DNA of 64,000 nt. Origin: Moheibacter lacus (GTDB taxonomy: Bacteria; Bacteroidota; Bacteroidia; Flavobacteriales; Weeksellaceae). Below, piece by piece: positions 4,064 to 21,312 of the stretch (position 1 is the stretch's first letter; every line of letters starts with the position of its first letter). Where the stretch lies: the NCBI RefSeq assembly GCF_014042165.1, contig NZ_JACDZE010000001.1, positions 580,595 through 644,594 of the forward strand, given 5' to 3'. The notes under the pieces are model-generated. The model did no database searches. It worked only from the letters and a program-made list of their open reading frames with translations, and had not been told where the DNA came from. Position numbers and translations under genes: made by a program.

Positions 4064-4582
4064 ATGCAAAAAGAAGATTGTTATTACCTCGGTAAAATCA
4101 CAAAACTTCATGGATTCAAAGGAAATCTGATTTTGCATTTGGATACAGATGAACCGGAATTATATGAAAATATGGAATCAGTATTCGTTGAAACAAACGG
4201 AATGCTGGTTCCATTCTTTTTTGAATTCATCCAACCGCATTCTCGCGGAAAAATGTTGGTGAAATTTGAAGATGTTTCACCCGAAGAAGCGGAAAAACTC
4301 ATCAACAAAGAACTTTATTTACCGCTTGAAACCCTTCCTGAATTGGATGGAAATGATTTTTATTACCACGAAATCATCGGATTCACACTTTATGACCAGT
4401 CCAATACGGAAATTGGTCTGATCAAAAATGTAAACGACAATTCTGCTCAGGCTTTATTTGAAATCGATCTCAACGGAAAAGAAATCCTGATTCCCATCGT
4501 AGAAGATTGGATTTTGGAAGTAGATCGCGAAAACAAAGCTATTCTGGTAGAAATTCCGGAAGGTTTGATCGATTTGAATTAG
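4064..4582 (+). CDS. rimM: Ribosome maturation factor RimM
   Basis: 172 aa, the usual length. The N-terminal RimM beta-barrel (LGKITKLHGFKGNL, residues 9-22) is followed by a PRC-barrel domain (DFYYHEIIGFTLYD, from about residue 100, and LIPIVEDWILEVD). RimM binds S19 and helps mature the head of the 30S subunit and process 16S rRNA. It is cotranscribed with rpsP. Its stop codon overlaps the stop of the convergent GLPGLI gene by 4 bp. Confidence 0.95.
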   Translation: MQKEDCYYLGKITKLHGFKGNLILHLDTDEPELYENMESVFVETNGMLVPFFFEFIQPHSRGKMLVKFEDVSPEEAEKLINKELYLPLETLPELDGNDFYYHEIIGFTLYDQSNTEIGLIKNVNDNSAQALFEIDLNGKEILIPIVEDWILEVDRENKAILVEIPEGLIDLN

Positions 4583-7307: not shown

Positions 7308-8270
7308 TTAATTCAAACCAGCCAAAAGTGTTTGCAAATCTTGAATGGTCGCCGGTGCCACCACCAAATCAAATGAATCGTCTCCGGCGATGGTCACATC
7401 TTGTGAACCGATTTGTAAAGATCCTTCAACCAATGAAATCGCAATGATTTTACCCTGAGCACCTGTCGGAATGCTTCCGGTATACGTGGTCAAAGCATCG
7501 CCCATCACTGTGGTCAAAGCGGCAACCGTAGAGAAATCGTTTAACGCAAAGAAAACTTGGGTATTGGCAAAATCGGGTGCATTTGGAACGCGTACTGAAA
7601 ACTGGGTCACATCGCCGCTCAAAAGGTCATAAAACGCATCACAATTGCTCCATCCGCCCACTATATTCCAAATCGTAAATTCGCCATTGGTTCCAGCCGT
7701 TTCATCCCAACTCAAATCTGAATTCCCGGTTCCCCATGAAATTACAGGACCTGAAGGTGCATTTACCGTTGTTCCTGTGAAATATTGCATCGAATTTTCA
7801 TATCCTGTCGCATCGGTTTGATATGGTAAAATCGCTTGAACGCCGTTCATGGTCAATTCTGCTCCGGTTGCATCTGTCACTTCTAACCAAAACATACCGC
7901 CGGAAACGAGTGGATCTTCACCTGCAAACGTATGGATGTTGTGTTTGATCATATCGCCTCTAGTAAAGATTTCAATCAGTTTGATGGTAAAAGGTGCAGT
8001 TGGCGCTCCTCCTCCATTTAATGTACAAGAATTGGCAGGAAAAACCAATCGGATGTCTTGTCCTTCAAGGATATTTTCAATCGTTGGGTCTGTAAGCGTT
8101 AAGACAATAGTGTCAGCAAGCGTCATCGTATCATGTACTTCCTGGAGATTTGTAAAATCACTTTCCGTAGGGAAACCTTGAAAAATTTCTTCATCATTTG
8201 TACACTGATAAAAACTAACCACTGAGAGTATCGTAACTATCATCAGGGTTATCGGGTTCAATTTTTTCAT
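7308..8270 (-). CDS. Putative lipoprotein, unknown function
   Basis: 320 aa. The N-terminus MKKLNPITLMIVTILSVVSF followed by YQC suggests a lipoprotein signal with Cys at residue 23. The rest is beta-rich with many Thr, Asp and Gly, compatible with an exposed surface domain. I do not recognise a catalytic motif. The C-terminal 60 residues (GAQGKIIAISLVEGSLQIGSQDVTIAGD) are followed by a short helix. It stands alone between terminators and tag. Confidence 0.7.
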   Translation of the reverse strand: MKKLNPITLMIVTILSVVSFYQCTNDEEIFQGFPTESDFTNLQEVHDTMTLADTIVLTLTDPTIENILEGQDIRLVFPANSCTLNGGGAPTAPFTIKLIEIFTRGDMIKHNIHTFAGEDPLVSGGMFWLEVTDATGAELTMNGVQAILPYQTDATGYENSMQYFTGTTVNAPSGPVISWGTGNSDLSWDETAGTNGEFTIWNIVGGWSNCDAFYDLLSGDVTQFSVRVPNAPDFANTQVFFALNDFSTVAALTTVMGDALTTYTGSIPTGAQGKIIAISLVEGSLQIGSQDVTIAGDDSFDLVVAPATIQDLQTLLAGLN

Positions 8271-8312
8271 TTATCTAATTTTTATTCTTACTTAATTATG
8301 ACGAAAATTCAC

Positions 8313-8894
8313 TCAAAAGGTTGCGTCTTCCTTTACTTCAATGTGCCTGAAACAGTCAGTGGTATGGTCATTTATCAAACCTGTTGCTTGAAGATGTGCA
8401 TAAACCACCGTACTTCCCACAAATTTAAATCCTCTTTTTTTCAAATCTTTGCTCAATCGGTCAGAAATCTCGTTGGTTGCCGGAACTTCTTTTATCGACT
8501 TTCTTTTTTCGTTGACCGATTTTCCGTTTACAAATCCCCAAATATAATCCGTAAAACTCCCAAATTCTTTCTGAATTTCCATAAAAGCTTGTGCATTTGT
8601 TACAGTTGCACGGACTTTCAATTGATTTCGGATGATGCCTTCGTTTTCTAATAACGATTGAATCTTCTCTTCATTGTATAGCGCGATTTTTTTATAGTCG
8701 AAATTGTCAAATGCTTTTCTGAAATTTTCTCTTTTTCTAAGAACCGTAATCCAACTCAATCCGGCTTGAAAGGTTTCTAAAATCAAGAATTCAAATTGTC
8801 GCGCATCATCTCTGACAGGCACGCCCCATTCTTCGTCATGGTATTTGACATAGATATCTTCTTTTCCTACCCAAGCGCATCTTGTTTTTTCCAT
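8313..8894 (-). CDS. tag: DNA-3-methyladenine glycosylase I
   Basis: 193 aa, normal length. The signature residues of Tag are present: CAWVGKEDIYVKYHDEEWGVP near the N-terminus (Cys6 and His19, zinc-snap residues), FQAGLSWITVLRKRENFRKAF, and a C-terminal DCFRH that supplies further zinc ligands. It removes 3-methyladenine from alkylated DNA. It ends close to the preceding lipoprotein gene start and probably has its own promoter. Confidence 0.95.
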   Translation of the reverse strand: MEKTRCAWVGKEDIYVKYHDEEWGVPVRDDARQFEFLILETFQAGLSWITVLRKRENFRKAFDNFDYKKIALYNEEKIQSLLENEGIIRNQLKVRATVTNAQAFMEIQKEFGSFTDYIWGFVNGKSVNEKRKSIKEVPATNEISDRLSKDLKKRGFKFVGSTVVYAHLQATGLINDHTTDCFRHIEVKEDATF

Positions 8895-8930
8895 TTTAAT
8901 AGTTGAATGTTGAAAGGTAAGTTTTTTCCA

Positions 8931-8958
8931 TAAAAAACCGCATTGGAAAAATGCGGTT
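8931..8958 (-). terminator. Terminator after ndk
   Basis: Stem AACCGCATT / AATGCGGTT (8936-8944 with 8950-8958), then a T run on the minus strand, about 70 bp past the ndk stop. Confidence 0.75.
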
Positions 8959-9031
8959 ATAAAAGATTTTATTTCATAGCAATCAATTCACGCTAGGAAA
9001 CGCTAATATCGTTTCGCTTGAATTCACTGAA

Positions 9032-9457
9032 TTAATAATTGTACAATTCTCTTCTTGAAAAATGGAAATCGCTCTCGATGATTGCGTTTTCATCACTATC
9101 AGAACCATGGATAGCGTTTGCAGCAATGGATTCAGCGTATTTCTGACGAATGGTTCCTTCTGCAGCTTCTTGTGGATTGGTCGCACCGATTAGGTTTCTG
9201 AATTCCTCGATGGCATTGTCTTTTTCCAAAACCGCAGCCACGATCGGACCTGAAATCATAAAGTCTACCAATTCACCAAAAAACGGACGCTCTTTGTGTA
9301 CTTCATAAAACAATTCTGCATCACGGCGTGAAAGTTGGGTCAATTTCAAAGCTTTGATTTTGAAACCGGCGTTGGTGATATCCGCCAAAATATTTCCGAT
9401 GTGCCCGTTTTTCACGGCATCGGGTTTAATCATTGTAAGTGTAATCTTTCCAGACAT
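9032..9457 (-). CDS. ndk: Nucleoside diphosphate kinase
   Basis: 141 aa from the ATG at 9457, which gives the usual [15 protein letters not shown] start; a TTG 24 bp upstream is less likely. The phospho-accepting histidine lies in [11 protein letters not shown] (residues ~115-125), with substrate-binding TMIKPDAV and the ERPFF segment. It equilibrates NTP and NDP pools. Monocistronic with a downstream terminator. Confidence 0.96.
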
Positions 9458-9626
9458 TTTGTTTATTTTTTTGAGCGGCAAAAATAATGCGTTTCGCAGA
9501 AATTAAAAAGTATAATGCTAAAACTATAACGTAAAGTGCTGAAAAATTAACACTTAACTTGATTGATAAATCGAATTTTTGATATGTAATTCAAATGAAA
9601 GCCCTCCTTTGTAGAGCTGGGAGTCA

Positions 9627-10511
9627 TCATTCTCTATATATCAATGGAGCAAATTTGGATTGGTTAAACTCCGCTTCTTTTTCAAATTTGGTGATGGAAT
9701 GTATTTTCTTTTCGTCTACTTTTACCACTTCTACAAAAACCGGTTCTTTCTCGGAATTGGCAAAAAGATTGTAAATGTAGATTTCAAAAAATTCCTTCTC
9801 CAAAAATCCATCGGTCACCAAAATTTTATCGGAAGCTTTGCATTTTTCAATTAAAGATTTATAAGGCTCAGAGCTCTCCAATTCATTCAATGTCAAAAAT
9901 TTACCTAAAAAACTGAATTGATCATCTTTGATTTCATATACTTTGATGTCCTTTCCTTTATAAAGTCGGATTTCATACCTCAACTCAGCTTCATCTAACA
10001 AAGTAAACAAAACGATTTCATCTACAGGATAAATAAAATCAGCCAATTTTTCTTCTTTTTTCTCCAATTGGTAATGGATAGGAATTTGAAATACCAAATT
10101 TACAACTGTTCCATCCTTCAATTTTGCAGGTCTTATCGGTGGCAATTCCATTGCGATTTTTTCCATGGCCATAACGGCAGCCTCTCCCAAAATCGGATCA
10201 CTACCTTCCATTTCCTTCATTCCAAATAAAATTCCTTCTTTTGAAATGATGAATTGAACATCGGCTCTCGCATCATAAATTCCACTATGGATTAAAAATT
10301 CATCCACACCTTTCATGTTTTGAAGTAATCGATCCGAAAGGTTCGCTGCGATACATTTGGTCATATCCTTTTTGTCCTGTGGATCTACCGTTTCACAACC
10401 GGGAAACACTGGCATTTCTTTGACTTTATTTTCCGTGTACAATTGATGCGATTGACTGAAAATGAAGTTTCCAAAGAATAAAATCGACAAGAAAGAAATT
10501 AATGGCTTCAT
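9627..10511 (-). CDS. TonB C-terminal-like domain exported protein (paralog 1)
   Basis: 294 aa with a signal peptide (1-19). Residues ~30-145 hold a flavobacterial TonB-C-like domain: the opening MPVFPGCE with a paired downstream Cys (TKCIAANLSD), then ADVQFIISKEGILFGMK and LPPIRPAKLKDGTVVNLVFQIPI. No proline-rich periplasmic spanner or membrane anchor is seen, so it is not a classical energy transducer. The C-terminal ~140 residues are specific to this group. It is first of three tandem paralogs. Confidence 0.8.
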   Translation of the reverse strand: MKPLISFLSILFFGNFIFSQSHQLYTENKVKEMPVFPGCETVDPQDKKDMTKCIAANLSDRLLQNMKGVDEFLIHSGIYDARADVQFIISKEGILFGMKEMEGSDPILGEAAVMAMEKIAMELPPIRPAKLKDGTVVNLVFQIPIHYQLEKKEEKLADFIYPVDEIVLFTLLDEAELRYEIRLYKGKDIKVYEIKDDQFSFLGKFLTLNELESSEPYKSLIEKCKASDKILVTDGFLEKEFFEIYIYNLFANSEKEPVFVEVVKVDEKKIHSITKFEKEAEFNQSKFAPLIYRE

Positions 10512-14796: not shown

Positions 14797-14935
14797 AAGG
14801 TTAAAAATGACAAAATATGTCGTTGGGGATATTTTTATTCACAAAATCATTTAATGCAGAATCGTACAAATTACACTTTCAATGATTTGACTAAAAATAA
14901 GCGATTTGATAGTTTGGGAAAATATATGGGCTTAA

Positions 14936-15148
14936 TTAATAAATTGTTTCATAATTACTCCAGTCGGTGTATCTTCTTGTGGTACCGTCCTGAAGATAAA
15001 CAACCAAGGAATTCCCCATCCAAACGGCTCTTTCCACCGGTCTTCCTACGTAGAGATTTTCATACGTATAAGTTGCTCTGTAAAGTTTAACGGTTGAATT
15101 ATCGATTTTTAAAACACCGTAATTAGCTGATTCATTCCAAATGTCCAT
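14936..15148 (-). CDS. Small protein of unknown function
   Basis: 70 aa from the ATG at 15148 (76 aa if a GTG at 15166 is used). It is rich in Tyr, Trp and Val (VKLYRATYTYENLYVGRPVE; GTTRRYTDWSNYETIY) and looks like a small beta-sheet domain. No signal peptide. I do not recognise it. It stands alone between recA and the WYL operon, transcribed away from the latter, with the inverted repeat at 15190-15228 just upstream. Confidence 0.5.
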   Translation of the reverse strand: MDIWNESANYGVLKIDNSTVKLYRATYTYENLYVGRPVERAVWMGNSLVVYLQDGTTRRYTDWSNYETIY

Positions 15149-15189
15149 CTTTTCTAAGTTTTTCACAAAGTTGAGATGTGCTATTATAT

Positions 15190-15228
15190 TCTATTTACAA
15201 TGAGGGATTTTTTCTCATTGTAAATAGA
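15190..15228. repeat. Perfect 15-bp inverted repeat
   Basis: TCTATTTACAATGAG (15190-15204), a 9-nt loop GGATTTTTT, and its exact complement (15214-15228). It lies between the divergent 14936 gene and the WYL operon. Its right arm is part of the operator-like block described next, so the left arm supplies a third half-site in opposite orientation. Confidence 0.85.
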
Positions 15229-15252
15229 TTACAACGACATAATTTAATTTCG
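15214..15252 (+). promoter_or_regulatory. Operator/promoter-like block of the WYL operon
   Basis: TTGTAA-N5-TTACAA (15218-15234 region) inside a block that begins CTCATTGTAAAT and continues CATAATTT. The same block recurs at 17988-18025. The first TTG (15218-15220) lies 19 bp before TAATTTAA (15240-15247), a plausible -33/-7 pair, so a protein bound to the palindrome would cover the promoter. The WYL regulator encoded by this operon is the obvious candidate binder (inference). Confidence 0.5.
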
Positions 15253-15408
15253 CAACCCTTCAAGATTCGCTCATTGAAATAATTGAAACGACCAAATCCT
15301 ACGCAAAATAAACTGTTGAGAAACAAATAAAGGTGGTAGGGAAGGAATTTTCAATGTATCTAAATTTTTAATCTAACTAAATTTATAAATTAATCAAAAA
15401 ATAACTTT

Positions 15409-16155
15409 ATGAGTAAAATAGATTTTTCAAAATACTTAAAAAGCACTGACGAATATTCGCAAATTAAATTAACTGAATTTGTAACAAATTTAAACGAACA
15501 ACCTTATTTTTATAATTCCGTAATCGAACATAAAACATTGATTGAAAATTTAATCGATGATTCTGAAGTAGATTTTTGTCTTTTGGAATTTCAGTCGCAT
15601 TTTGACATTGTCGCTTCTGACTTATTTCAAATCGACTTGAACGAGGTTAAAAATGAATTAAGAAGAAACAATAAAACCGCAAATGCTATTTTGACTGCCT
15701 TTGAAATTACTCCGAGATTAGCCGAAAAAGCAACCCGAACACTTGTTTGGTACAAAATGTATTTTAAAGCGATCCTGCAAAAGATTCTTGATGTAGACGT
15801 TTTACATCACGATTTTATATTTGGTTGTGATATACACGATGATGATGACGTTTTGGAAAATGGAAAATTCGCTGATATATTCATTCACAAACCTGCTCTT
15901 TTACAAATTACTTCCGTAGATTTTATTGATTCTTATGAATCCATTCTATTGGAAGAATTGGGAATAACTCCGGAAGAATACAAACAAATATTTGAATTTC
16001 CCTTTGCTTTACTTTTTGATGTGGGAATTAAGATTGAAGGACAAAAAAACCTAATCAGGAAACCTTTTCTGATGAGCATGGGGCGAGATCTGTTTTTTAT
16101 GTTTGATTCTGTCACAAAACATCGTTTCACTAATGAATTCAGTAGAAAATCCTAA
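15409..16155 (+). CDS. Protein of unknown function, first gene of WYL operon
   Basis: 248 aa, soluble and acidic, no signal peptide or membrane segment. I do not recognise a family. Notable segments are FGCDIHDDDDVLENGKFADIF (residues ~143-163; Asp-rich) and KIEGQKNLIRKPFLMSMGRD (~208-227). It ends 6 bp before the WYL regulator gene, so the two are cotranscribed and probably work together. The ~160-bp leader between the operator-like block and the ATG is AT-rich and shows nothing else. Confidence 0.7.
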   Translation: MSKIDFSKYLKSTDEYSQIKLTEFVTNLNEQPYFYNSVIEHKTLIENLIDDSEVDFCLLEFQSHFDIVASDLFQIDLNEVKNELRRNNKTANAILTAFEITPRLAEKATRTLVWYKMYFKAILQKILDVDVLHHDFIFGCDIHDDDDVLENGKFADIFIHKPALLQITSVDFIDSYESILLEELGITPEEYKQIFEFPFALLFDVGIKIEGQKNLIRKPFLMSMGRDLFFMFDSVTKHRFTNEFSRKS

Positions 16156-16161
16156 TTAATT

Positions 16162-17142
16162 ATGGCAGGAAAAAACGCTTATTTACGCTATCGAATCATT
16201 GACGAATGTCTGAACAGCAACAAAAACTATGATGCTAATTCATTATTGGAACGAATTTCAGAACGTCTTGATTTAAAGGTTTCCAAAAGCACTTTAGACA
16301 AAGATATCCGGGCGATGAAAGAGGAACTGTCCGCCCCAATAAATTGGAACAAAGACGGATTCTATCAGTACGAATACGAGTTTTCGCTTACCGGAATTAC
16401 TCTTGCCGATGAAGAAGAAGATGCTCTTAAAACAAGTCTTGCCATTTTGGATATTCTGAAAGAAACAAAATTCCTGAAATCTTATCAATCACTTTTTGAA
16501 CGACTTTTGGTTCGTTCTCAAAACCAACCCGACGAAAACCATTTTATAGAATGGGAAAAACCGGCGGAGTTTCTCGGAAAAGAATGGTTTGATTTGATTC
16601 TTAAAGCCATTCGGGAACGGCAAACATTGCAGATTACACACAAAGTTTATGACAAAGAACCTAAACAACATACTGTTTCACCTTTTATGATAAAAGAACA
16701 CCGAAACCGTTTTTATTTAATTGCGCTGAAACACAAAAAAGGAAAAGAAAATGCCATTTACAGTTTTGGATTTGACCGAATTTTGGATGTGAAAACATCA
16801 AAGGAAAAATTCAAATCAACTCCCGGATTTAATTCAAAAGAATTCTTCAAATACAGTATGGGAATTACCCGAAAACTAAATGAAGAACCTCTGAAAATGA
16901 AACTCAAAGTAAATGCTTTTGATGCAAATTACGTTTTGTCAGACCCTTGGCATTCCTCCCAAAAAGTCGTGGAACAAACCGATGAACATTTAATTTTCAC
17001 GATTGAAGTTTACGACTCAAACGAATTGGATTTAAAAATCAGAAGTTATGGAGCCGAAATCGAAGTACTGGAACCGGAAAGCTATCGCCGAAAAATAAAA
17101 GAAACCGCCGAAAAGATGCTGCGCATTTACGGAAAACCGTAA
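16162..17142 (+). CDS. WYL-domain transcriptional regulator
   Basis: 326 aa. Residues ~1-60 form a winged-helix DNA-binding domain (YRIIDECLNS, SKSTLDKDIRAMKEEL). Residues ~150-225 are a WYL domain: TVSPFMIKEHRNRFYLIAL, with FYL replacing WYL, followed by the FDRI turn. The C-terminal ~80 residues are a WCX-like extension (DPWHSSQKVVEQ; KIRSYGAEIEVLEPESYR). WYL domains bind ligands such as nucleic acids, and WYL regulators frequently control phage-defence operons. It is second in a tight operon and probably regulates it through the TTGTAA-N5-TTACAA sites. Confidence 0.88.
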   Translation: MAGKNAYLRYRIIDECLNSNKNYDANSLLERISERLDLKVSKSTLDKDIRAMKEELSAPINWNKDGFYQYEYEFSLTGITLADEEEDALKTSLAILDILKETKFLKSYQSLFERLLVRSQNQPDENHFIEWEKPAEFLGKEWFDLILKAIRERQTLQITHKVYDKEPKQHTVSPFMIKEHRNRFYLIALKHKKGKENAIYSFGFDRILDVKTSKEKFKSTPGFNSKEFFKYSMGITRKLNEEPLKMKLKVNAFDANYVLSDPWHSSQKVVEQTDEHLIFTIEVYDSNELDLKIRSYGAEIEVLEPESYRRKIKETAEKMLRIYGKP

Positions 17143-17195
17143 AATTTCTCTGAAAATTTAGTATATTATTGTAAAAACTTTTAAAATTTAAAACT

Positions 17196-17978
17196 ATGAA
17201 TGAAATTAACCCAGAATGGATCCAAAATCGAATTGAAAACTTTTTTGGATATGGAAATTTAAATTCCCCGATTTGGTTTATTGGTATTGAAGAAGGTTTT
17301 AGAGTACGAGATAGATACCAAAACGGAATTGATTTGTTAAAATTAAGATTTGAAAGAACCTATAATCAAAACTCAATTGATGTCGTTGGTGGTATGGAAG
17401 GCGTTTCAGACCATCTAAAATGGTATCAAAATGCAACAGAGATTCAAGATACTTATAAACGGCTAATACAGATTCTACTTCAATGGAGAGGACAACCTAT
17501 TGATGATTCGTCCGTTTTAGGTGTTTTTAATGATAATGTCAATGGGTTGGGAAGAATTAATAGCGATAACGCTATATTAGAGTTGTTACCACTTCCAAAT
17601 CCTGATTTGGGACAATGGATATATGAAGAATACGCAGAAGGTGACTTAGACTTTTTGAGGGATAGAAAAACTTATCAAAAATCCGTAAGAAAAGAACGGG
17701 TTGAAGGATTAAAAAGATTGGTTCAAGAATATGAACCAGAAGTTATTGTTTTTTACTCCCGAAGCTATGTGAATGAAGCAAAAAAATTAATTGAGAACCC
17801 TGTATTACATAACGAAGAAGACACAGAATTATACTATCATTTTTCAAGTGGAAAAACCCATTTATTTGTTACGCCTCACCCAACTCATAGATACAAACTA
17901 AAAACTGGCAGAGTACCAGATGACAATGATTGGACAACAATCAGAAATGCAATTGTAGATGTTTTAAACAACAACTAA
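17196..17978 (+). CDS. Unknown protein, possible uracil-DNA-glycosylase fold
   Basis: 260 aa, cytoplasmic. Near the N-terminus it has FFGYGNLNSPIWFIGIEEG (residues ~17-35), resembling the first motif of UDG-superfamily proteins (strand, then GxxPG). Near the C-terminus THLFVTPHPTHRYK (~220-233) resembles the second, HPS-type motif. The middle part is helical. This two-motif layout is the only support for the fold; no substrate can be assigned. It follows the WYL gene by 53 bp (with a half-site ATTGTAAA at 17168-17175) and is followed by an operator-like palindrome and a hairpin. Confidence 0.6.
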   Translation: MNEINPEWIQNRIENFFGYGNLNSPIWFIGIEEGFRVRDRYQNGIDLLKLRFERTYNQNSIDVVGGMEGVSDHLKWYQNATEIQDTYKRLIQILLQWRGQPIDDSSVLGVFNDNVNGLGRINSDNAILELLPLPNPDLGQWIYEEYAEGDLDFLRDRKTYQKSVRKERVEGLKRLVQEYEPEVIVFYSRSYVNEAKKLIENPVLHNEEDTELYYHFSSGKTHLFVTPHPTHRYKLKTGRVPDDNDWTTIRNAIVDVLNNN

Positions 17979-17987
17979 ATTACATCC

Positions 17988-18025
17988 TCATTGTAAATCC
18001 TTTACAATCCCGCAACATAATTTTA
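17988..18025 (+). promoter_or_regulatory. Second operator-like block, before the AAA ATPase gene
   Basis: A perfect palindrome ATTGTAAA-TCC-TTTACAAT (17990-18008), which contains TTGTAA-N5-TTACAA exactly as at 15218-15234, and the same flanks CTCATTGTAAAT and CATAATTT. It begins 10 bp past the stop of the upstream gene. TAATTTTA (18018-18025) may be a weak -7 box. Confidence 0.55.
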
Positions 18026-18028
18026 CAG

Positions 18029-18060
18029 CCCTGATTCGGAAAAACGAATCAGGGTTTTTC
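18029..18060 (+). terminator. Terminator or attenuator hairpin before the AAA gene
   Basis: A perfect 10-bp stem CCCTGATTCG / CGAATCAGGG with a 6-nt loop, followed by TTTTTC: a textbook intrinsic terminator. Only 25 bp remain before the AAA ATPase start, so there is little room for a separate promoter. Either it ends the upstream operon with partial read-through, or it attenuates transcription started at 17988-18025. Confidence 0.8.
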
Positions 18061-18085
18061 TTTCACTAAAAAACAAATCCATTTT

Positions 18086-19744
18086 ATGACAAAAAACCGG
18101 ACAGGACTTCTGAATTTAGCAGAAATGCTTCATTCGCTGAACCATCAAAACAGATTAAGCGAAGAAATCTACCAACAAAATTTCCAGGAAACAGAAGAAT
18201 TTGCAGAATATTGCGAACTGAGTGAAACACAGGCGCTTATTTTCGCAAGCTGTCTGATTTTGGGGTATTCAGGCTCTTCGATAGCAGCGGTTTTCCGACA
18301 TTTCGGGTTGGAGGAACACGAGCTTCTCCACTACAGGAAAGATATAGAAGTTTTATTCAAAAGAAAACTTCTGGAAAAAGTCCGGAACAAAGACAAGAGA
18401 AGGTTTCATTTTTCTATCCCTGATGAGGTTTACAGTGCTGTTTGTATAGGCAGCCCACTTCCCGATCATCAGAAAATTGAACAAAAAAACTTAGTGGATT
18501 TGCTTCAAATATTTAATGAACTAAGTGATGAATTTGATAATCATTTATTATCAGAATTTGAATTTAAAAATCATCTCGAAACATTTATAGACGAAAACGC
18601 AGAACGCCCGGTATTCAATGAGATGAAACTGAAGAATCTGAATTTATTTGAAATATTCTTCTTTTTAGACACAATTTGGGATGCCATAGAATCCGGAAAC
18701 AATCGTTTCAATACTAATGTGGAATCAACCATCAATGATTTCTTTATATCCAAATCAAAAGCATTTGCTGCTTTAACAAATATCACAGATGGATTTTCTA
18801 TTTTGACCAAATCCGATTTTATTGAACTCTCCAGCTCCGAGTTCAGAAACCGCTGCCGGGCAAAAATATCCAAACGGATGATTCAGTTTTTGAAGAATGA
18901 AGAAAAATTGGAAATAAACGATAACTCCGTCCGAGATTCAAAATTAATTTCGCATCGTTCCATAGCTGAAAAGAAATTATTTTATAATGAACGAACCGCC
19001 GAAAATCTTATCCTGTTAGATTCTCTTTTAGCTGAAAAATCATTTTCAGTCATCCAGAAAAGATTAAAAAACAAGTCAATGCCCATAGGCGTTGCTGTTC
19101 TTCTATATGGAGAACCCGGTGTCGGAAAAACAGAATCAGTTTATCAATTGGCAAAATCGACCCAAAGAAACATATTTCACGTGGACATTTCTGACACCCG
19201 TTCTATGTGGTTTGGAGAAAGCCAGAAATTGGTCAAAAAAATATTTTCGGATTACTACGAAATCCGGAAAAAGGAAAAAAATTGTCCCATTTTATTATTC
19301 AATGAAGCTGATGCCGTTATTGGAAAAAGAAAGCCGTCTGGAAACAGCGGTGTTTCGGATACCGAAAATGCGATTCAAAACATTCTGCTTGAAGAAATGG
19401 AAAAATTTAACGGGATACTCTTTGCGACTACCAATTTGCAGGAAAATATAGATAATGCTTTTGAACGAAGATTCCTTTTTAAAGTAAAGTTTGAAAAGCC
19501 AACCACTGAAAATGCCTTCAAAATCTGGAAAGAAAAACTGCCTTACCTCAACGACAACCAGGCAAAAATTCTTAGTCAGGATTTTCCGTTTTCAGGAGGC
19601 GAAATAGAAAATATTTCTCGTAAATGCCTAATGAACGAAATTATTTATGGGAAACCATTTTCTTTTGAAGAAATTCAAATAATTTGTTCCGAAGAAAAAT
19701 GGGGAAAACATTCTCAGGTGAAAATCGGGTTTCAAAAAGTCTAA
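18086..19744 (+). CDS. AAA-family ATPase with unknown N-terminal region
   Basis: 552 aa. Residues ~1-330 are a helical region I do not recognise; it starts with a LAEMLHSLNHQNRLSEE helix and has a possible helix-turn-helix around residues 50-110 (SETQALIFASCLILGYSG; ELLHYRKDIEVLFKRKLL). The C-terminal AAA domain has Walker A GEPGVGKT (~342-349), Walker B ILLFNEAD (~401-408; Asn replaces the usual first Asp), a TTNL sensor 1 and an FERRF arginine finger. Such single-copy AAA proteins remodel a partner or nucleic acid. It lies behind the second operator-like site, so it is probably coregulated with the WYL operon. Confidence 0.85.
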   Translation: MTKNRTGLLNLAEMLHSLNHQNRLSEEIYQQNFQETEEFAEYCELSETQALIFASCLILGYSGSSIAAVFRHFGLEEHELLHYRKDIEVLFKRKLLEKVRNKDKRRFHFSIPDEVYSAVCIGSPLPDHQKIEQKNLVDLLQIFNELSDEFDNHLLSEFEFKNHLETFIDENAERPVFNEMKLKNLNLFEIFFFLDTIWDAIESGNNRFNTNVESTINDFFISKSKAFAALTNITDGFSILTKSDFIELSSSEFRNRCRAKISKRMIQFLKNEEKLEINDNSVRDSKLISHRSIAEKKLFYNERTAENLILLDSLLAEKSFSVIQKRLKNKSMPIGVAVLLYGEPGVGKTESVYQLAKSTQRNIFHVDISDTRSMWFGESQKLVKKIFSDYYEIRKKEKNCPILLFNEADAVIGKRKPSGNSGVSDTENAIQNILLEEMEKFNGILFATTNLQENIDNAFERRFLFKVKFEKPTTENAFKIWKEKLPYLNDNQAKILSQDFPFSGGEIENISRKCLMNEIIYGKPFSFEEIQIICSEEKWGKHSQVKIGFQKV

Positions 19745-19755
19745 ATCTTTATTCT

Positions 19756-20154
19756 ATGAAAAAATATCTTTATATTTTCATACTTGTCTTGAGCATAAAT
19801 CTCTTCTCTCAAACCGCAGACAAAAACATCCTAAAAACCATCATCATCACCGAACTCAACAACCATCAAAAATTTGGCAACAAAATTCATTTACTGAATG
19901 AATTTGATGAAAATTATACGCATTTAATTACATTGGATGACATTATGATTAGTTTCAGCAAAGAATTACATTCAGACGGAAAGGAGATTTATTCCGACAC
20001 CAAATACGATTATGATAAATTCAGAAAAGATTTTGTTGAGAAGATGCAAGACGTCTGTTTCAGGCATCTATTGAATGAGAAAAACATTGCTCAGTTATAC
20101 ATTCAAATTTCCACTAAAGTTGATTTGTTTTACGATATAAAATTGTATTATTAA
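19756..20154 (+). CDS. Small exported protein, unknown function
   Basis: 132 aa. A clear signal peptide (MKKYLYIFILVLSINLFSQ) supports the ATG at 19756 rather than an earlier in-frame start inside the AAA gene. The mature part is acidic and Lys-rich (DENYTHLITLDDIMISFSKE), without cysteines apart from one near residue 115. It lies 11 bp after the AAA gene and may be cotranscribed, but its export makes a direct partnership doubtful. Confidence 0.6.
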   Translation: MKKYLYIFILVLSINLFSQTADKNILKTIIITELNNHQKFGNKIHLLNEFDENYTHLITLDDIMISFSKELHSDGKEIYSDTKYDYDKFRKDFVEKMQDVCFRHLLNEKNIAQLYIQISTKVDLFYDIKLYY

Positions 20155-20187
20155 AACATCATAGTCAGCATTTTGAGTAAAAACACT

Positions 20188-20195
20188 TAACTTTG
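20188..20195 (+). promoter_or_regulatory. Probable promoter of mntA-hepT
   Basis: TAACTTTG matches the -7 box and ends 5 bp before the mntA ATG, implying a nearly leaderless mRNA. Confidence 0.5.
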
Positions 20196-20199
20196 TTTT

Positions 20200-20487
20200 A
20201 TGTTGTCAGAAAATCAAATTAATATCATCATAGATACCTTGAAACCATATAATCCCACAAAAATCGGGATTTTTGGTTCATTTGCCCGTGGAGAAAATTC
20301 GCCTGACAGCGATATTGATATTTTGTATTCATTTAAAAACACAATTAGTTTATTCAAACTCGTTGGCATTCAGCTGAATTTAGAAAGCCAATTGAATAAA
20401 AAAGTGGATCTGGTTTCGGAAGAATACATTCATCCCAAGTTGAAGCCCTATATACTAAATGACCTGAAAATCATCTATGGAAATTGA
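20200..20487 (+). CDS. mntA: MntA-type nucleotidyltransferase antitoxin
   Basis: 95 aa, minimal nucleotidyltransferase fold. The signature GSFARGENSPDSDIDIL (residues ~26-42) is the full GS-x10-DxD metal and nucleotide site. In MntA/HepT systems this protein neutralises the HEPN toxin by transferring AMP to a tyrosine beside its active site. It overlaps hepT by 11 bp. Confidence 0.9.
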   Translation: MLSENQINIIIDTLKPYNPTKIGIFGSFARGENSPDSDIDILYSFKNTISLFKLVGIQLNLESQLNKKVDLVSEEYIHPKLKPYILNDLKIIYGN

Positions 20488-20833
20488 TAAGAATTTGTTC
20501 CGGCTTGAACACATTGCGGAAAATATTGAAAGAATTGAAAATCTCATTAAAATCTTACATTCTTTTGATAATTTTGAGAGGAAATGGATTGAGAGTGAAG
20601 CTATGATCCAGTGTTTTGAAATCATCGGAGAAGCGGCTAACCATATTTCCGAAGACCTGAAAGGTAAATATCCGGAAGTTGCGTGGAATGAAATACGCGG
20701 AATGAGAAACTATATCAGCCACGAATATTTCGGGCTTCAACTGGACTCGCTTTGGGATGCAGCAATAAACGATATTCCCATTCTGAAAAAGCAAATCCTG
20801 AAAATTAAATCAGATTTAACAACAAAATCCTAA
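20477..20833 (+). CDS. hepT: HepT-like HEPN ribonuclease toxin
   Basis: 118 aa HEPN protein. The catalytic Rx4-6H motif is RNYISHEYF (residues ~78-86), giving Arg, four residues and His, with the Tyr that MntA AMPylates in related systems at the conserved place. The GEAANHISEDL segment is family-typical. It cleaves RNA when not modified. It sits at the right edge of the accessory island, next to the convergent peroxiredoxin gene. Confidence 0.9.
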   Translation: MEIDKNLFRLEHIAENIERIENLIKILHSFDNFERKWIESEAMIQCFEIIGEAANHISEDLKGKYPEVAWNEIRGMRNYISHEYFGLQLDSLWDAAINDIPILKKQILKIKSDLTTKS

Positions 20834-20859
20834 CTAGGTTTGAAACCCCGCTAAGGTTG

Positions 20860-21312
20860 TTAATTCAACTCCAAAATCTGTTTTGCGTGTTCTTTGGTTT
20901 TCACTTTGTTTATTACCTCTTCGATGATTCCGTTTTCATCGACGAGAAATGTCGTTCTGAGAATTCCGTCAAACTCTCTTCCCATAAATTTCTTTCTTCC
21001 CCAAACACCGAATGCTTCAATAATTTTTTTGTCCTCATCGGCAATTAACGGATAATTCAAATCATATTTTGTCGCGAAATTTTTCTGTCGTTTTACCGAA
21101 TCGGCACTCACACCAATTATTTTATAGCCTTTGGCTTTCAACGCTTCTTCATTATCCCGCAAATCACAGGCTTCAGCCGTACAGCCCGGCGTACTGGCTT
21201 TCGGATAAAAAAACAGAACATATTTTTTTCCTTTGTATTCTTCTGATTTTATAACTTTTCCGTTCTGGTCGATTCCTTCAAATTCGGGGGCTTTGTCTCC
21301 TTTTTCTAACAT
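20860..21312 (-). CDS. bcp: Thioredoxin-dependent peroxiredoxin, BCP/PrxQ type
   Basis: 150 aa. Peroxidatic and resolving cysteines lie five apart in TPGCTAEACDLRD (residues ~42-54), the two-cysteine PrxQ pattern. YPKAS and the downstream RTTFLVDENG segment also match. It reduces hydrogen and organic peroxides in the cytoplasm. Confidence 0.95.
   Translation of the reverse strand: MLEKGDKAPEFEGIDQNGKVIKSEEYKGKKYVLFFYPKASTPGCTAEACDLRDNEEALKAKGYKIIGVSADSVKRQKNFATKYDLNYPLIADEDKKIIEAFGVWGRKKFMGREFDGILRTTFLVDENGIIEEVINKVKTKEHAKQILELN

Follow-up and report, generated by a model that had tools for sequence, protein, structure and literature searches.

The stretch of about 6 kb next to recA in the genome of Moheibacter lacus is acquired DNA, and the four genes that it carries are best read as a defence module under BrxR/CapW-style control, whose effector would be UDG-like and would have an AAA ATPase as its partner, a reading to which we give a probability of roughly 45%. 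We infer the enzymology and the defence role of the module, as well as its regulation, the latter by analogy with BrxR and CapW. The four genes were found within the window (the whole stretch of 64,000 nucleotides that was analysed) on one strand and at the positions reported by an earlier sequence-only reading, as confirmed by the coordinates of the open reading frames (ORFs). These are P1 (15409-16155, +), an orphan protein of 248 aa with no fold assigned; a regulator of 326 aa with Pfam WYL and WCX domains (16162-17142, +); P3 (17196-17978, +), a putative UDG-superfamily-like protein of 260 aa; and an AAA ATPase of 552 aa (18086-19744, +; PF00004). The intergenic gaps between them are 6, 53 and 107 bp, respectively.

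The acquired segment was delimited by nucleotide comparison of the window with four congeners, in which similarity breaks at 14844-14862 and restarts at 20860-20870, leaving a segment of ~6.0 kb (14862-20859) between recA and bcp. Out of six genomes of the genus that were searched with recA, including that of M. lacus itself, one (G079) gave no recA match, and in all four congeners with a readable junction (L063, L068, L069 and L070) recA and bcp are adjacent and the segment is absent. Its G+C content (0.335) is below that of the window (0.373). The same segment contains a MntA/HepT-type pair (20200-20833, +), which lies outside the unit defined by the two boxes described below. The claim that such a pair adjoins the four genes stands at the level of Pfam domains, both of which are above cut-off (PF01909, 5.3e-16; PF01934, 2.4e-21), but not at that of the curated NCBIfam models, below whose cut-offs both genes remain (49.6 and 27.2 bits versus 60). 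Two smaller ORFs were observed in the segment. One, of 76 aa on the reverse strand at its recA edge (14936-15166), had no relatives among the 611 ORFs compared. The other, of 132 aa between the AAA gene and the MntA/HepT pair (19756-20154), has a signal-peptide-like start and reads like a secreted protein; no family above cut-off was found for it in Pfam or NCBIfam, and no relatives among the 611 ORFs.

The predicted two-promoter layout under WYL control is supported by a 17-bp palindrome, TTGTAA-N5-TTACAA, common to the regions upstream of P1 and of the AAA gene. Box 1 (15218-15234, +) is part of a feature at 15191-15234 that includes an extra inverted half-site at 15191-15204, and box 2 (17991-18007, +) precedes the AAA gene, which bears out the earlier claim that the same operator-like block stands in front of the operon (at 15218) and in front of the AAA gene (at 17991). 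At an equal distance, 27 nt past the start of the box, each is followed by a TAATTT-type element, TAATTTCG (15245-15252, +) and TAATTTTA (18018-18025, +), respectively; these are putative -7 promoter elements, which we take to resemble the Bacteroidota -7 box. A direct repeat of 46 nt, 72% identical, starts at 15214 and 17987 and is the longest one listed for 15100-20210. Within the 2.77-Mb genome, the exact pattern occurs in two places, both in this locus, versus none for the reversed control pattern, and any equal-spacing 6-bp inverted repeat common to both intergenic stretches was obtained in 22 of 20,000 Markov re-samplings. Given that, by 24-mers, the AAA upstream region was no more similar to an 18-kb part of the window than expected by chance (19 versus 18-19), the case for the repeat relies on the palindrome and on its genome-wide rarity. 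Downstream of box 2, and still ahead of the AAA gene, there is a perfect intrinsic-terminator-like hairpin (18029-18054, +) followed by a T run (minimum free energy of 18010-18085, -20.3 kcal/mol; z, -5.53). The hairpin begins at the very place expected for the transcription start belonging to box 2, and it may be either the end of the P3 operon or an attenuator of the AAA transcript.

The regulator itself was readily assigned, with both Pfam matches above cut-off (PF25583, 4.6e-12; PF13280, 2e-9; 37.7 and 46.5 bits for the WYL and WCX domains versus cut-offs of 21.8 and 23.9), whereas the HTH_11 match at its N-terminus (E 0.055) was below it. Its best matches among solved structures were WYL-domain proteins (best E, 3.9e-05), PafBC being among the matches. 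BrxR is described as binding, at the promoter of its own gene, inverted repeats whose arms are separated by a 5-bp spacer, with a second such box at another promoter of the island (excerpts of PMC9122601), and the two exact boxes, as predicted operators, reproduce this arrangement of an inverted repeat at the regulator's own and at a second promoter. The likeness to BrxR-controlled islands thus comprises the WYL regulator, the 5-bp spacer and the placing of the boxes; the arms differ, being 6 bp here versus 11 bp for BrxR (excerpts of PMC9122601), and the box sequence here is local to the island. Also, no BREX model of PADLOC was matched by the seven window proteins. CapW is described as repressing through promoter palindromes with release on infection (excerpts of PMC9122588), and the regulator type and the palindromes over promoters are shared with CapW-controlled CBASS. 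On the other hand, no CBASS gene was found among the PADLOC matches here, the TRIP13-like matches were limited to the AAA domain, and the first gene here is the orphan P1.

The linkage of this AAA family to WYL regulators is an observation that extends beyond the window. The AAA protein matches PF00004 at 4.5e-25, with what we take to be a Walker A motif at residue 342, a Walker B motif at 400-409 and an arginine-finger-like RR pair at 461-462. Among the matches listed in order of score, near-full-length relatives were found in 15 of 196 other family genomes (one of the 15 in two pieces), and these 15 chromosomal loci, together with the best 5 of 15 plasmid records and the window, make up a set of 21 AAA loci. 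In 19 of the 21, a WYL gene was located no more than 8 kb from the full-length AAA gene, as detected with a WYL profile built partly from the WYL genes of these loci, and 17 of the 19 have both genes on one strand; the exceptions are L054 and L049, in which the contig extends for only 183 bp upstream of the AAA gene. When the WYL protein of the window was the sole BLAST query, a WYL gene was recovered in 13 of the 15 chromosomal loci. All five plasmid regions that were opened carry an annotated WYL protein, and one of the five comes from Aliarcobacter, which does not belong to Bacteroidota. As a control, loci of shorter AAA relatives were considered, and none of the 18 had a WYL gene nearby, a comparison that is weaker than its number since 14 of the 18 come from one genus and may represent one inherited place. 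The AAA family is thus strongly WYL-linked, while its further neighbours vary (type I restriction, GmrSD/DUF262-type genes, GTPases).

The box of the window is not used in the other AAA loci, where the palindrome upstream of the AAA gene has a different sequence and is mostly single; many of these genes have a palindrome like CTACGCC-N7-GGCGTAG beside a CATCTTTG promoter-like element. Therefore, we rejected a general rule of one box on every gene. In L048, where the palindrome is repeated ahead of other genes within a longer duplication, there are three exact copies of TACGCCACGTTTCGGCGTA at 4151, 6095 and 7960, the start of the last one being 55 bp upstream of the AAA gene. The promoter stretch around them recurs with them upstream of other island genes; in L098 the recurrence is limited to a promoter stretch.

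For P3, the features shared with UDG enzymes are weak, and a UDG fold is suggested by profile comparisons of its family. P3 itself matches the Pfam UDG family at E 0.0069 and 16.9 bits, below the cut-off of 24.3, with motifs at residues 30-34, 129-134 and 228-229. Relatives were collected by a search of 395 phylum genomes and used to build a profile, A3, which matches 9 of the 395 genomes, that of M. lacus included; one further relative is encoded in a viral contig. P3 as query found nothing in plasmids, phages, viral contigs or species contigs, and three of its relatives as queries found nothing in plasmids. Four order-level matches of 40-72 residues (E 0.001-0.005) were dropped, being read as unrelated, and so was G678, which was absent from the matches of the A3 family profile. 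Against the PDB, A3 gave two matches, the second of which, after an RNA polymerase chain, was the UDG 4zbx (E 0.82, below significance), aligned in two pieces that come in the same order in both, the first of them without statistical weight. Within the family, the Pfam UDG domain was found in two of six members (best, 1e-05), and the HP[ST] motif is missing from its C-terminal place in four of the six. Glu129 of P3 can be read from its motif as the counterpart of the UDG Asn, a position that by the same motif reading is Glu in four and Asn in two of the six A3 rows. The P3 structure prediction reached a pLDDT of 40 and was left unused. With an E-value limit of 1, the Pfam UDG family as query recovered two other places of the genome, and P3 was not among them; the genome has another UDG above cut-off.

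A second family of UDG-like genes, A2 (228-238 aa), was identified downstream of the AAA gene in 5 of the 21 loci (L041, L042, L043, L044 and L047). The best of the two PDB matches of its profile was again 4zbx (E 0.19, below significance). Sequence comparisons make a relation between the P3 family and A2 suggestive: hhalign of A3 against A2 gave 67% at E 5.2e-5, and a search of the 611 ORFs with A3 retrieved two members of A2, both at about 2e-4. Against this relation, P3 alone gave 0.9% against A2, and a larger P3 profile, of 10 members, failed to retrieve A2. In the 18 control loci, which comprise 253 ORFs, the A2, A3 and P3 profiles were all without a match. Counting the P3 of the window, 6 of the 21 loci therefore combine AAA and WYL with a UDG-like gene, be it P3 or one with a weak relation to it, although L042/L044 and L041/L047 look like shared arrangements and the independent cases are thus fewer than six. 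In addition, a divergent genome (L095) has two UDG-like genes, an AAA gene and a WYL gene in one run, one of the UDG-like genes being retrieved by A3 at 2.5e-7 and the other being related to the first at 6.7e-18. The AAA protein of L095 (PF00004, 1.4e-15) belongs to another branch and was not matched by the full-length profile of the window's AAA.

Seen from the side of P3, the company is more varied. A WYL gene lies near 3 of the 10 P3-family loci (the window, L079 and L095) and, according to a Pfam scan of part of the ORFs, an AAA gene near two of them (the window and L095), with no relative of either AAA found in the other eight. The P3 relative is found beside a MutH-type gene in L097, with a SNF2/PLD helicase and a methylase in L081, and with a Fic-type gene in L080; around that of L077 there was no nameable defence gene. 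The P3 relative of L097 also has a weak PADLOC BrxA match (E 1.9e-4).

None of Pfam, PADLOC, NCBIfam and PHROGs gave a match to P1, and no convincing relative was found in overlapping samples of 197, 196 and 213 genomes, in viral contigs, plasmids or phages, or in a pattern scan, reaching close relatives alone, of the contigs of 84,980 species. Matches at E 0.0009-0.006 were dropped in four genomes, in two of them for frames with stops (G123 and G447) and in the others because they read as a methyltransferase (G348) and as DNA polymerase I (G214). The structure prediction (pLDDT 36) was left unused. The proposal that the four genes stay together as a strict set has thus failed: P1 is without a convincing relative anywhere searched, P3 was found in no other genome among the 197 of the family, and the complete set in no other genome searched. 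The weaker idea that their products act together survives as co-occurrence of AAA with WYL (19/21 versus 0/18) and of UDG-like genes with both (6/21 versus 0/18, and L095), with P1, an orphan, falling outside it. In Pfam and NCBIfam, neither P1 nor P3 matched a family of ordinary metabolism.

In the mechanism that we propose, the locus would be a self-contained acquired module beside recA, in which the WYL protein would bind TTGTAA-N5-TTACAA over the P1-WYL-P3 promoter and the AAA promoter and repress both. By the example of BrxR and CapW, an infection or DNA-damage signal would reach the WYL domain and release both promoters. P3, once released, would attack DNA, most plausibly by excision of unusual phage bases, while the AAA ATPase, judging from its class, would remodel or load a partner, and P1 may be an accessory or target-specific part. 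We counted in favour of this mechanism the two rare boxes with their BrxR-like plan, the absence of the island from all four congeners, the AAA-WYL linkage (19/21 versus 0/18, with the BLAST result and the plasmid annotations), the presence of A2 in five loci versus none of the controls, the hhalign result, the common PDB match 4zbx, and the company kept by P3 and AAA relatives. Against it were counted the orphan P1, the 9 of 395 genomes with P3 matches, the sub-threshold UDG match, the genome search with the UDG family that missed P3, the non-significant PDB match, the HP[ST] motif missing from four of six family members, the negative comparisons of P3 and of its 10-member profile with A2, the pLDDT of 40, the four-gene set found nowhere else, the different palindromes of other AAA loci, the hairpin before the AAA gene, the WYL genes near only 3 of 10 P3 loci, and the BrxA match of L097.

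Alternatively, the locus may be a defence island of separately acting genes, in which the P1-WYL-P3, AAA and MntA/HepT units have in common their location and regulator only, with P3 and AAA in separate pathways. This is a serious possibility: the neighbours of AAA genes differ widely (restriction genes, GmrSD-type pairs, GTPases), the eight P3-family loci other than the window and L095 had no relative of either AAA in the Pfam scan of part of their ORFs, and the terminator-like hairpin splits two transcription units. However, the identical box at both promoters and the combination of UDG-like, AAA and WYL genes, present in L095 as well as in 6 of the 21 loci, argue against it. It is also conceivable, if unlikely, that P3 is not UDG-like, the weak matches being due to chance and the module unrelated to base excision. 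Every UDG match of P3 itself is below thresholds and the structure model is at pLDDT 40, yet both the A3 and the A2 profile reach 4zbx, the pieces come in the same order in A3 and in the UDG (even if the first is without statistical weight), and two of the six family members have the Pfam domain (best, 1e-05). UDG enzymes are classically repair enzymes, and in a further reading the locus would be a WYL-controlled DNA-damage or stress module in which P3 repairs host DNA, the AAA protein is a chaperone and phages are not the target. We consider this improbable: WYL regulators of DNA-damage responses such as PafBC are known (excerpts of PMC9122588), and PafBC is among the structure matches of the regulator, but the locus is patchy and acquired rather than core, the genome already has another UDG above cut-off, and P3 and AAA relatives are found among restriction-type and Fic-type genes.

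The proposed defence module also has to be compared with known systems having a similar effector or ATPase. Brig1, an antiviral glycosylase reported in 2024, is UDG-like, its model being similar to UDG enzymes, and it carries Glu147 in a position that is often occupied by Asn in related enzymes (excerpts of PMC11078745). With Brig1 and Brig3 the locus would share a UDG-like protein in a defence context (excerpts of PMC11078745 and PMC13160076), and P3 Glu129, in what seems to be the place of the UDG Asn, would correspond to Brig1 E147, by a reading of motifs and not of structures (PMC11078745). They differ in that the excerpts of neither paper contain the term "WYL", nor those of the Brig3 paper the term "ATPase" (PMC11078745, PMC13160076). 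The AAA domain resembles IetA of the IetAS system (PADLOC, 3.3e-23, residues 322-530), but the NCBIfam IteA model gave 72.6 bits versus a cut-off of 510, and no protease/subtilase IetS domain was found by Pfam in the seven proteins scanned. By titles and abstract starts among the matches listed, we recognised no paper on the combination of WYL, uracil-DNA glycosylase and defense island; a figure legend of predicted systems in the DefensePredictor paper names a UDG domain (excerpts of PMC13092281). A distinct glycosylase-AAA system has a real but unproven chance and, if true, a WYL-switched, AAA-coupled Bacteroidota version would widen the Brig1 class and add to it a regulator and an energy-using partner. 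More doubtful is a whole undescribed class of immunity in Bacteroidota under a WYL switch, where non-canonical phage bases would be excised or bound by a protein with the UDG fold and a dedicated AAA would load this protein or process abasic DNA. For the UDG-like subunit, two or more families with a weak mutual relation (P3 type and A2 type) would there replace each other, and accessory subunits like P1 would turn over fastest because they would carry the target specificity.

Independently of P3, the AAA family, which has a WYL gene no more than 8 kb away in 19 of 21 loci, can serve as a marker in the search for uncharacterised defence islands. A gene of ~77 aa was observed between AAA and WYL in L048 (9808-10041), L053 (4890-5123) and L101 (9808-10041). 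The cluster containing those of L048 and L053 is represented in 10 of the 15 chromosomal AAA loci, its member in L042 having no Pfam match, and the gene of L101 was likened to them by position and size alone. L101 is a plasmid of Chryseobacterium balustinum, in which the AAA gene (8132-9804) is annotated as two ORFs, beside a DUF262 (GmrSD-type) pair and a WYL gene.
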